64,000 bases of DNA from Gammaproteobacteria bacterium (GTDB lineage Bacteria; Pseudomonadota; Gammaproteobacteria; Steroidobacterales; GCA-2729495): NCBI GenBank assembly GCA_030746435.1, contig JASLMV010000002.1, positions 62,001-126,000 of the forward strand, given 5' to 3'. Every line of letters begins with the position of its first letter. Within the stretch, counting starts at the first letter, position 1. Below the pieces are notes generated by a model that had not been told where the DNA came from, made no database searches, and saw only the letters and a list, made by a program, of their open reading frames with translations. The position numbers and the translations under genes were made by a program. Below, piece after piece: positions 10,497-37,378 of the stretch.

Positions 10497-10616
10497 TCAT
10501 TGAATACTGAAAAAGCTGTGCTTTTCCAGCATTGTCGAGCGAAAAGATTTCCAGCTCGGTTTTTGGAGAAGTAGTCTATTCATTGAATACTGAAAAAGCA
10601 GTGCTTTTCCAGCATT
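10497..10616. repeat. Two direct copies of a 37-nt repeat
   Basis: The unit at 10497-10533 recurs at 10580-10616 with one substitution, and a short third start (CATTGAATG) is seen at 10671. Each copy holds a hairpin CTGAAAAAGC/GCTTTTCCAG with one mismatch. The following bases (AAAAGATTTCYRGCTC) also recur, so the period is 83 bp. The stretch lies between the small membrane protein and tRNA-Lys. Confidence 0.85.
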
Positions 10617-10630
10617 AATTTGGGCAAAAA

Positions 10631-10664
10631 GATTTCTGGCTCTGCTTTGCGAGAGCCAGAAATC
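10631..10664. terminator. 13-bp perfect hairpin downstream of tRNA-Lys
   Basis: GATTTCTGGCTCT (10631-10643) pairs perfectly with AGAGCCAGAAATC (10652-10664) around an 8-nt loop. It lies 14 bp past the 3' end of tRNA-Lys (read leftward) and also after the rightward small gene. It has no long T run, so it may be a processing or rho-assisted end rather than a classical terminator. Confidence 0.6.
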
Positions 10665-10677
10665 TGCCCTCATTGAA

Positions 10678-27159: not shown

Positions 27160-27236
27160 TGGTGCCCCGACCATGATTCGAACATGGGACCTTCCGCTTA
27201 GGAGGCGGACGCTCTATCCAGCTGAGCTACCGGGGC
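27160..27236 (-). tRNA. tRNA-Arg (anticodon CCT)
   Basis: A complete 77-nt tRNA with encoded CCA on the minus strand. Acceptor GCCCCGG/TCGGGGC, D-arm GCTCAGCTGGATAGAGC, anticodon stem TCCGC/GCGGA with loop CTCCTAA (anticodon CCU), T-arm CATGG-TTCGAAT-CATGG by sequence CCATG/CATGG. Its 5' end and upstream flank are partly duplicated about 170 bp away. Confidence 0.95.
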
Positions 27237-27431
27237 ATAGTTGCGGCAATTTTAGAGAAGTCAGTCGTTAAAGACACTAGCGGCTCTGCGAGCCGCAGGA
27301 CGCTCCGCTGCGTCGCCCTGCTCTTTCGGGCCCTGTTCTGAGTCGCTGCGCGACTATAGGATTTGCGGGTTCAAATACCCGCAAATTTCCCAGCGACCTA
27401 CCGGGGCTAGGTTCGGGAATTCTAGAGAAGT
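27224..27431. repeat. Direct duplication of tRNA-Arg 5' end and flank
   Basis: 27224-27261 (acceptor start of tRNA-Arg plus upstream flank) is repeated at 27395-27431 with a few changes: CTACCGGGGC, then about 27 bases ending AGAGAAGT. Between them lie GC-rich palindromic stretches (27275-27340) and one copy of the two-hairpin element (27342-27384). The outer copy truncates the neighbouring exported-protein gene. The stretch 27237-27421 has no gene. Confidence 0.8.
27342..27384 (-). repeat. Two-hairpin tRNA-associated element, copy D
   Basis: Minus-strand order: TTGCGGGT, loop ATTTGA, ACCCGCAA; 8-nt spacer; GTCGC, loop GCA, GCGAC. It has the same 43-nt geometry as the three copies at the tRNA-Ser locus, but different base pairs at stem-1 position 6 (G-C here) and stem-2 position 2 (T-A here). 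It follows a tRNA-Arg-like 5' fragment (GCCCCGGTAG) on the same strand. Confidence 0.8.
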
Positions 27432-34334: not shown

Positions 34335-34528
34335 CAGAGTTATATCCGCGTACTCGGGGTACTTTCAGAGATCGGTCGGAGTTTATTTTAGCAGCTAATA
34401 GTTGGCATATAGATAAATTCACCTATGCGCACACACGCAGGAGTTAGTGACCGCGAGGTGACAGCGAATCTTAAGTTAAGAAGCTTAAGCGCCGGACTAG
34501 TTTTGGCAGACGGCCCCGCAAGGGGAAT

Positions 34529-34571
34529 TTGCGTGTATTCGGACACGCAAGTTTTAGGGCTGCAAAGCGGC
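34529..34571 (+). repeat. Two-hairpin tRNA-associated element, copy A
   Basis: TTGCGTGT, loop ATTCGG, ACACGCAA; spacer GTTTTAGG; GCTGC, loop AAA, GCGGC (one G-T wobble). Preceded by GGGGAAT. Shares the continuation CTCCTG with copy B. Confidence 0.85.
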
Positions 34572-34638
34572 TCCTGCCCTGAAATAGCTCAGCTAAGCTG
34601 GGTAAACCGTCTGTGAGCAATTTGGCGGAGAGGGGAAT

Positions 34639-34681
34639 TTGCGCGTATTCGGACGCGCAGGTTTTACAGCCGTGAAGCGGC
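34639..34681 (+). repeat. Two-hairpin tRNA-associated element, copy B
   Basis: TTGCGCGT, loop ATTCGG, ACGCGCAG; spacer GTTTTACA; GCCGT, loop GAA, GCGGC. Preceded by GGGGAAT and, directly before that, by TTTGGCGGAGAG, identical to the complement of the tRNA-Ser 3' end with CCA. Stem-1 position 6 is C-G here versus T-A in copies A and C. Confidence 0.85.
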
Positions 34682-34736
34682 TCCTGTTCTGAGCCCGGGT
34701 CGAACCCATGGGGGTTCGTCCACACGCCCTACCCAC

Positions 34737-34765
34737 AAAAAATCAAAGCCCCGCAAGGGGGCTTT
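34737..34765 (-). terminator. Terminator of tRNA-Ser (leftward)
   Basis: AAAGCCCC/GGGGCTTT stem with a GCAAG loop, followed on the minus strand by a T-rich stretch (TGATTTTTT). Lies nine bases past the tRNA-Ser 3' end. Confidence 0.8.
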
Positions 34766-34773
34766 CAATTTTT

Positions 34774-34863
34774 TGGCGGAGAGGGAGGGATTCGAACCCC
34801 CGGACCCGGTGAAGGGTCAACGGTTTTCAAGACCGCCGCATTCGACCACTCTGCCACCTCTCC
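34774..34863 (-). tRNA. tRNA-Ser (anticodon TGA)
   Basis: A complete 90-nt type-II tRNA with encoded CCA. Acceptor GGAGAGG/CCTCTCC, discriminator G, anticodon stem GCGGT/ACCGT with loop CTTGAAA (anticodon UGA), long variable arm (GACCCTTCACCGGGTC), T-loop TTCGAAT. The seryl-tRNA synthetase gene lies 1.2 kb downstream on the same strand by coincidence or synteny. Confidence 0.95.
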
Positions 34864-35032
34864 GTGCTCTGAATTGTAAGGACTTGGAGTTGAATCTGCT
34901 CGTCCCGGTCGGGATTGACTCGCTCGTTAACACTCGCTTCGCCCTTCGGGCGCTTTCCGCGGCTACACCGCTCAAGCGTCCTCTCGCCCGTCTGCCCGAA
35001 CGCTGCGCGTTCCGTCAACCGTGCTCGGGTCA

Positions 35033-35152
35033 AACCCCCGGACCCGGTGAAGGGTCAACGGTTTTCAAGACCGCCGCATTCGGGCCATACAAATATGTGC
35101 CGCTACGCGGCCCTCAAACCTGCGTGTCCGAATACACGCAGATTCCCTCTCC
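35033..35152 (-). pseudogene. Pseudo-tRNA-Ser interrupted by the two-hairpin element
   Basis: Read on the minus strand from 35152: GGAGAGG (tRNA-Ser acceptor), then about 64 nt with element copy C in place of the D-arm, then from CGAATGCGG onward 50 nt identical to the intact tRNA-Ser (35033-35082 equals 34795-34844), covering the anticodon arm, variable arm and half the T-arm. The 3' acceptor strand is lost. The flank upstream of 35152 (CCTTACAAT) resembles that upstream of the intact gene, so promoter and 5' end were duplicated together. Confidence 0.8.
35099..35141 (-). repeat. Two-hairpin tRNA-associated element, copy C
   Basis: Minus-strand order: CTGCGTGT, loop ATTCGG, ACACGCAG; 8-nt spacer GTTTGAGG; GCCGC, loop GTA, GCGGC. 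Stem-1 outer pair is C-G here versus T-A in copies A and D. Lies inside the pseudo-tRNA-Ser. Confidence 0.85.
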
Positions 35153-35316
35153 GAACTCTTATTGTAAGGCCTCGATGCACTTTGCGAGTTCCCGGTCGGG
35201 CGCGATTCTCGCGCTTCTGCGGACTTAACACAATTCGCCGGGCACTTTTCAGCCTGTATTGCTGTCCCACGTGACGTGCTAAAATTCACAGCCAGACCGC
35301 GTCTAATCAGGAGAAA

Positions 35317-36061: not shown

Positions 36062-37378
<1,317 letters not shown>

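Follow-up and report, generated by a model that had tools for sequence, protein, structure and literature searches.

A covarying double-hairpin repeat often joined to the 3' ends of stable-RNA genes in an uncultured order of Gammaproteobacteria

What is the short two-hairpin sequence that recurs beside tRNA genes in this gammaproteobacterial genome: a part of the transcripts next to which it lies, a product of local copying or an element that moves? The question arises from a preliminary description of the 64-kb stretch of DNA analyzed here (the window), in which four copies with a uniform layout were reported (8-bp stem, 6-nt loop, 8-nt spacer, 5-bp stem, 3-nt loop). As set out below, the module is a genuine, structured, lineage-restricted repeat. 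The likeliest reading is a mobile palindromic module which, in general terms, is of a known kind, but which has a new layout and is notable for its joining to RNA-gene 3' ends.

Results

Four copies of the module in the window

Direct inspection of the sequence established that all four copies are real and that the layout holds in each of them (Table 1). The paired changes reported at position 6 of the first stem (T-A, C-G, T-A and G-C), at its outer pair (T-A, T-G, C-G and T-A) and at position 2 of the second stem (C-G or T-A) are present in the window copies as claimed; the second stem contains one G-T wobble in copy 1 and one in copy 2. A pattern scan of the window with up to three mismatches matched only these four copies, a number reached in none of 100 shuffled windows (mean 0.06, largest 2). 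An unfiltered covariance model retrieved the same four (E-values of 1.5e-20 to 1.8e-19) and, at each of these sites taken together, four antisense echoes (E 0.06-0.8). When the copies were folded, their z-scores ranged from -3.5 to -5.7 as RNA and from -2.9 to -6.9 as DNA. Two of the three tRNA loci detected in the window are occupied by the module.

At curated scores, the Rfam search of the window returned three tRNAs only and no family match on the module, and none of the six matches from an E-value search of positions 34400-35300, five of them under the gathering score, was assigned to it; over all stretches searched, Rfam matches were to tRNA, tmRNA and rRNA alone. Near the tRNA-Ser locus lies a seryl-tRNA synthetase gene (36062-37339, Pfam), whose relatives among the 80 loci kept from a scan are at most 68% identical. 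In the DNA below the tRNA-Lys gene (10497-10665), a pair of hairpin-like 37-nt repeats (97%) occurs together with a perfect inverted repeat of 14 bp.

Table 1. Module copies and neighboring tRNA genes and gene fragments in the window (E, covariance model E-value; helix names as in the text)
Feature	Position	Strand	Two-hairpin core	Remarks
Module copy 1	34523..34576	+	34529-34571	E 1.8e-19; K5' 34525-34528; S stem 34531-34536 with 34543-34548; loop K3' 34537-34540; H2 34559-34571
Module copy 2	34633..34686	+	34639-34681	E 7.9e-20; GAATTT end adjoins reverse-complement tRNA-Ser 3' end copy
Module copy 3	35094..35147	-	35099-35141	E 1.5e-20; acceptor-like CGGAGAGG on one side, remainder of partial tRNA-Ser copy on the other
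Module copy 4	27337..27390	-	27342-27384	E 2.4e-20; adjoins partial copy of tRNA-Arg 5' end
tRNA-Ser (TGA) gene	34774..34863	-		
14-nt tRNA-Ser 3' end copy (CCCTCTCCGCCAAA)	34621..34634	-		Adjoins copy 2; original 34772-34785
53-nt partial tRNA-Ser copy (98%)	35030..35082	-		Adjoins copy 3; original 34792-34844, 238 bp away
tRNA-Arg (CCT) gene	27160..27236	-		
Partial copy of tRNA-Arg 5' end and upstream DNA	27395..27431	-		Adjoins copy 4; originals 27224-27236 and 27233-27261

Copy number and proximity to tRNA genes in the genome of origin

The genome from which the window derives (G000; 2.43 Mb in 38 contigs) gave 84 matches to an 18-nt core pattern with up to three mismatches, compared with 56 for the reversed control, and 33 compared with none when at most one mismatch was allowed. 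Thirty-eight places were kept and 37 aligned; the covariance model R1 returned 39 copies, four further rows from this genome being antisense echoes.

The preliminary description had the module occurring only next to tRNA genes in the window. Genome-wide, the bias stands and the exclusivity does not: for ten of the 38 copies, a tRNA match (38 in this genome) is no more than 500 bp away, at seven loci (Ser-TGA with three copies, Ser-GGA with two, Ser-CGA, Arg-CCT, Arg-ACG, Thr-TGT and Pro-GGG), whereas for 28 the contig has no tRNA match within 500 bp. Other repeats came equally close at none of 40 control places (Fisher 4e-4), which were hand-picked, included one transposase gene by mistake and were in part adjacent to each other; the bias is modest if intergenic DNA alone is counted as available (binomial 0.04, the factor of 8 being a guess). 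The tRNA-locus bias of the module is therefore real, though not exclusive.

Pairing in the two hairpins

In 33 distinct rows from the genome of origin, 99.7% of 363 cells pair and five of the eleven base pairs have changed on both sides, a statistic matched by none of 500 shuffles. Since the row filter used for the alignment and the pairing counts demanded at least four of five stem pairs in the first hairpin (H1), pairing in H1 is partly selected; this filter dropped one copy with a stem mismatch (C4:84056), and three places that passed it but lack the second hairpin (H2) were removed by hand (in L047, in L049 and one in L045). H2 lay outside the selection criterion; 99.4% of its cells are paired, and three of its five pairs are compensated. 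When copies from other genomes were included (25 rows), 99.3% of cells pair and six of eleven pairs are compensated, the number of pair types being equalled in 19 of 500 shuffles. The two hairpins are favored both by RNA folding (eight copies) and by DNA folding (four copies). The earlier statement that covariation means a selected fold is thus right in that the fold is maintained and somewhat too strong in equating this with selection, because hairpin-templated mutation can also keep palindromes paired.

A third covarying helix

Such mutation is harder to invoke for a third helix (K), which was missed in the preliminary description and crosses the inner 6-bp stem (S) of the first hairpin. Four bases that end two positions upstream of S (K5') are complementary to the first four bases of loop 1 (K3'). 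The pairing is GAAT/ATTC in most copies of the genome of origin, AAAT/ATTT at tRNA-Pro and tmRNA and CGAT/ATCG in genus g24, with GAGT/ACTC, GGAT/ATCC, AATC/GATT, TGAT/ATCG, CGAT/ATTG and GGCG/CGCT as single cases. All four pairs are present in 55 of 65 rows (38 from the genome of origin and 27 others). In the 48 distinct rows, each of the four pairs shows two-sided changes (37 cells) and the score is 0.567 as against 0.203 in shuffled rows; slid versions of the pairing fail, and only 223 of 354 cells are paired if K5' is matched instead to the 3' extension outside H1. As neither R1 nor the second model, R2, held any K pairs, the helix was not selected as such.

K is incomplete in six rows of the genome of origin that have a GGTAGT flank and in L118, L206 (by a one-base shift), L210 and L121. 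Outside these counts stand C4:84056, four places on contig C26 of G067, tandem G054 copies of identical sequence and the weak places of five genomes (G023, G191, G231, G269 and G363). Among seven such extra rows that were scored, one C26 copy, similar to the included C69 copy, keeps all four pairs, the weak places L211, L213 and L214 keep three each, C4:84056 two and two C26 copies one; most of K is missing from C4:84056 and from two tandem G067 copies.

Since K crosses S, the two helices would form either a compact H-type pseudoknot or alternative, two-state hairpins, and the first hairpin is best drawn in one of these two ways. The putative pseudoknot would have helices of 4 bp and 6 bp and connecting loops of 2, 0 and 2 nt; so short a loop spanning 4 bp would be tight. 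The energy model, which is nested and blind to K, prefers an extended first hairpin and, for several copies, predicts that K5' pairs with this outer 3' extension. A reading of K as a guide that pairs with its target was rejected: the K5' letters are missing at this place from module-free MITE-like and REP-like units, and K5' therefore seems to travel with the element. Ancestry from a tRNA T-arm, with the H1 loop resembling TTCGAAT and H2 a variable arm, was dismissed as well, the spacing being unlike that of tRNA, and so was a Xer/dif site, since by eye the arms do not look like dif halves.

Distribution among genomes

When the 39 other family members were searched with R1, five had places, that in G023 being weak (E 0.005). 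The model search of the genome and its relatives suggested in the preliminary description uncovered many more copies: with R2, the carriers in the order are G000 and 14 of the 395 other genomes, with at least 37 places in those 14, and the module was not found in 381. Copy numbers in other genomes are lower bounds, as scoring was limited to 14 or 15 candidates in each. In five carriers the only place is a weak one (E 4e-6 to 5e-5; G046, G191, G231, G269 and G363), and a class-wide sample of 369 genomes added two others with one weak match each. The rows behind R2 include five with a CCA flank in addition to that of the genome of origin, those behind R1 one among 37, so that the weak R2 matches beside CCA in G046 and G191 may be helped by their flank.

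The distribution is patchy even within the genus, with 39 copies in the genome of origin, one in its congener G002 and none found in G001, G003 and G004; a one-mismatch match in G001 was counted as chance because it looks coding and has no H2. A stable-RNA gene or fragment lies at or near at least one place in seven of the 14 other genomes (G002, G016, G039, G046, G067, G092 and G191). G054 carries at least 14 copies, and the stretches read around them gave no Rfam match, none lying beside a known RNA gene. On contig C39 of this genome (L236, 40458-41171) the module occurs three times at a spacing of 330 bp. Three exact patterns had no match in viral contigs, the plasmids and phages searched had none either, leaving a phage or plasmid origin unsupported, and an H1 pattern scan of named genomes likewise gave none.

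Larger repeats that carry the module

The copies are modules of larger palindromic mosaics. In the genome of origin many are found next to REPs, in units of tandem hairpins or within MITE-A, a repeat of the MITE-like kind. MITE-like and REP-flanked carriers also exist without the module: MITE-A has it at at least five places and lacks it at seven distinct ones, and REP-flanked units without it are present too. Comparison of MITE-A with and without the module shows replacement of CGTGCC rather than simple addition, and no target duplication; a clean module-only insertion with constant edges and target duplication was not seen. Nested hairpins with AGGGATG-like or AGGATG-like loops are numerous in L006, L028, L031 and L116, where one palindrome sits within the loop of another.

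Some copies directly follow a REP-like palindrome (GCCGCGAACC joined to GAATTTGCG), and the genome of origin encodes two Y1-transposases (PF01797), which would be in keeping with an ordinary REP family mobilized by a resident REP-associated transposase. One of the two genes, however, is flanked by ordinary REPs, the model found no module within 1.5 kb on either side of either gene, and the aligned copies begin with (G/A)AATTT and end with GCGAC instead of carrying the GTAG or CGTC tag that marks one end of the 20-40 bp REP palindromes; we therefore rejected a plain REP of this transposase as scarcely probable. The gene between inverted REPs (GTGGGAGCGGCTTTAGCCGCGAA and its complement) lies in L113 at 1220-1820 (contig C33 near 4019).

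Junctions with RNA-gene 3' ends

The module stands in sense orientation directly after the CCA of an intact gene at tRNA-Pro in G002, at tmRNA in G016 and, with a weak score, at tRNA-Pro in G046, and possibly also follows an intact tRNA-Glu in G191. It abuts displaced 3' fragments of tmRNA in G039, of tRNA-Pro in the genome of origin and at two places in G067 (one with a different loop), of 5S rRNA in G067 and of tRNA-Ser in the genome of origin. The junctions are spread over several genera, and the 3'-end copies vary in length.

The sense copies behind CCA, a terminator-like hairpin that the module precedes in G016 and the three covarying helices speak for a structured RNA trailer that is transcribed with the tRNA, tmRNA or 5S and whose fold shapes 3' processing, an exonuclease block or termination, the dispersed copies being by-products. 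We nevertheless hold this to be unlikely, as the module has antisense orientation at 5S and tRNA-Ser, is absent from 381 of the 396 genomes of the order and from three of the four congeners and, in the genome of origin, mostly lies away from RNA genes.

Comparisons between genomes are informative about how the fragments arose. At tRNA-Pro, the genome of origin and G002 share 97.6% over 82 bp of the tRNA and 88% over the 67 bp that comprise the tRNA 3' fragment and the module, and a displacement of 195 bp sets the two parts apart in the former, which has a 22-nt copy of the 3' end; this locus has also been rearranged, since the neighboring gene is inverted and on the other side compared with G002. 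At tmRNA, where G016 has the module behind the gene, fragment and module are about 153 bp further on in G039. A 75-bp part of the G039 stretch matches (81%) the sequence after the module in G016, in which the matching stretch is followed by another 14-nt copy of the tmRNA 3' end. In G067 (L205, around 1480-1690) the antisense module lies between two copies of a stretch (81 bp, 93%) that comprises the 3' end and terminator of 5S rRNA. It follows that RNA-gene 3' ends collect successive insertions or duplications, of which the module is one recurrent component.

At tRNA-Pro and tmRNA an att-like copy of the RNA-gene 3' end is thus present on the far side. Taken with the repeat spacings of 195 bp and about 153 bp and with the homologous inserts that G039 and G016 hold in different order, this might indicate gene-less miniature elements of 150-200 bp that a tyrosine recombinase inserts at RNA-gene 3' ends, the 3' fragment being a displaced att copy and the module lying at one end. 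Integrase-family genes occur in all six carriers examined (two in the genome of origin), but they also occur in all 14 control genomes. The nearest one found on the same contig as a copy is about 2.9 kb away, and around eight integrase genes of carrier genomes the model detected no module. The module is moreover found in both orientations and away from RNA genes, and the duplicated 5S part in G067 includes the terminator, all of which makes insertion of this type decidedly improbable.

A further explanation dispenses with any mobility of the module: replication slippage and template switching at hairpins would copy parts of palindromes and of RNA genes, and the stems would be kept paired by hairpin-templated mutation. 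The tandem partial duplications, namely that at 5S, one of the tRNA-Ser-GGA 3' end with its hairpin and the 53-nt one of tRNA-Ser-TGA, and the nested palindromes throughout fit this. We judge it rather improbable all the same, in that the same module occurs beside unrelated RNA genes, inside unrelated repeats and on many contigs, and that a K helix crossing S is not readily explained by hairpin-templated correction.

Retro-insertion, in which RNA 3' ends with the module are reverse transcribed and then inserted, would account for duplicates of variable length that include the mature RNA 3' end, two of which start inside the T-loop (L044 and the first fragment of L003). A reverse transcriptase domain (RVT_1) was found once each in G002 and G039, and no match was found in the other four of six carriers (G000, G016, G054 and G067); this route was rejected as a general explanation and appears very improbable. 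No mobilizing enzyme is tied to the module.

Discussion

The reading that we prefer, at a probability of about 0.5, is that of a non-autonomous mobile palindromic repeat unit of ~50 nt, found mainly in one uncultured gammaproteobacterial order, which settles beside the ends of structured RNAs or hairpins and hitch-hikes in larger repeats. One strand would fold as K5' (4 nt), 2 nt, S5' (6), K3' (4), 2 nt, S3' (6), a spacer and the 5-bp hairpin H2, often followed by a third hairpin. We infer that the module itself is mobile, that it probably moves as DNA, not RNA, and that the folded single strand may be the form recognized by an enzyme acting in trans. It would come to rest directly beside the 3' ends of tRNA, tmRNA or 5S genes or beside REP hairpins, the RNA-gene ends presumably reflecting an insertion preference and not a site of function, and would reach its high copy number when larger mobile repeats carry it. 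A subsequent insertion or duplication at the 3' end of an RNA gene may then part the module from the gene and leave a short 3' end copy beside it. Whether it represents a new class of bacterial non-autonomous element, in which a single-strand pseudoknot whose loop pairs with its own 5' edge and a second hairpin are delivered in trans to stable-RNA-gene 3' ends and REP hairpins, is a tentative and on balance doubtful proposition.

Like REPs and BIMEs (PMC3733652), the module is a short extragenic palindrome that is limited to a lineage and forms mosaics with other palindromes, and a REP family with a REP-flanked gene for a REP-associated tyrosine transposase exists in the same genome. It differs from them in lacking the GTAG tag, in having two hairpins and a loop-to-flank helix, in abutting RNA-gene 3' ends and in flanking no transposase gene; the words 'pseudoknot' and 'compensatory' are absent from the main text of this REP paper. 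With bacterial MITEs such as ERIC, RUP, Nezha and NEMIS (same source) it shares small size, absence of genes and folding, and MITE-A carries it. Unlike them, it shows, in the alignment, no pair of terminal inverted repeats of 15-30 bp, which the carrier MITE-A does have. As to target duplication, none accompanies the module in MITE-A, and the RNA-gene loci have 3'-end copies of varying length.

The fixed two-hairpin layout, the many dispersed copies and the presence or absence between close relatives are also traits of mitochondrial double-hairpin elements (Allomyces, sponges), which are multi-hairpin, intergenic and patchy between close relatives, with the enzyme unknown; an RNA-mediated route is cited for those of Allomyces (PMC2800124). 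The likeness is one of description, the module is bacterial rather than mitochondrial, and the passages of PMC2800124 consulted describe neither a loop-to-flank helix nor a junction with RNA-gene 3' ends. PMC2884548 was a further source.

The open-access listings searched gave no account of a comparable element at the ends of RNA genes, so that novelty in print is provisional. Short palindromic repeats are common, and to our knowledge covariation kept across several families of an order has rarely been shown for them; nor is any palindromic repeat with a loop-to-flank helix known to us from the open-access literature. The repeats downstream of E. coli tyrT (rtT) each hold a tRNA 3' fragment and thereby resemble the module loci, and are not known to contain a double-hairpin module. 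The exact joining of the module to the 3' ends of tRNA, tmRNA and 5S offers defined junctions at which a mobilizing activity can be sought, and the module marks how tRNA neighborhoods gather partial gene copies.

A second module, which ends in GAGTC, was noticed in L003 (1385-1419), L044 (1470-1501) and L004 (1301-1318). Its junction with tRNA 3' fragments, or with sequence resembling them, falls within the T-loop (GAGTC|AATCC), which suggests another element with its own junction rule.
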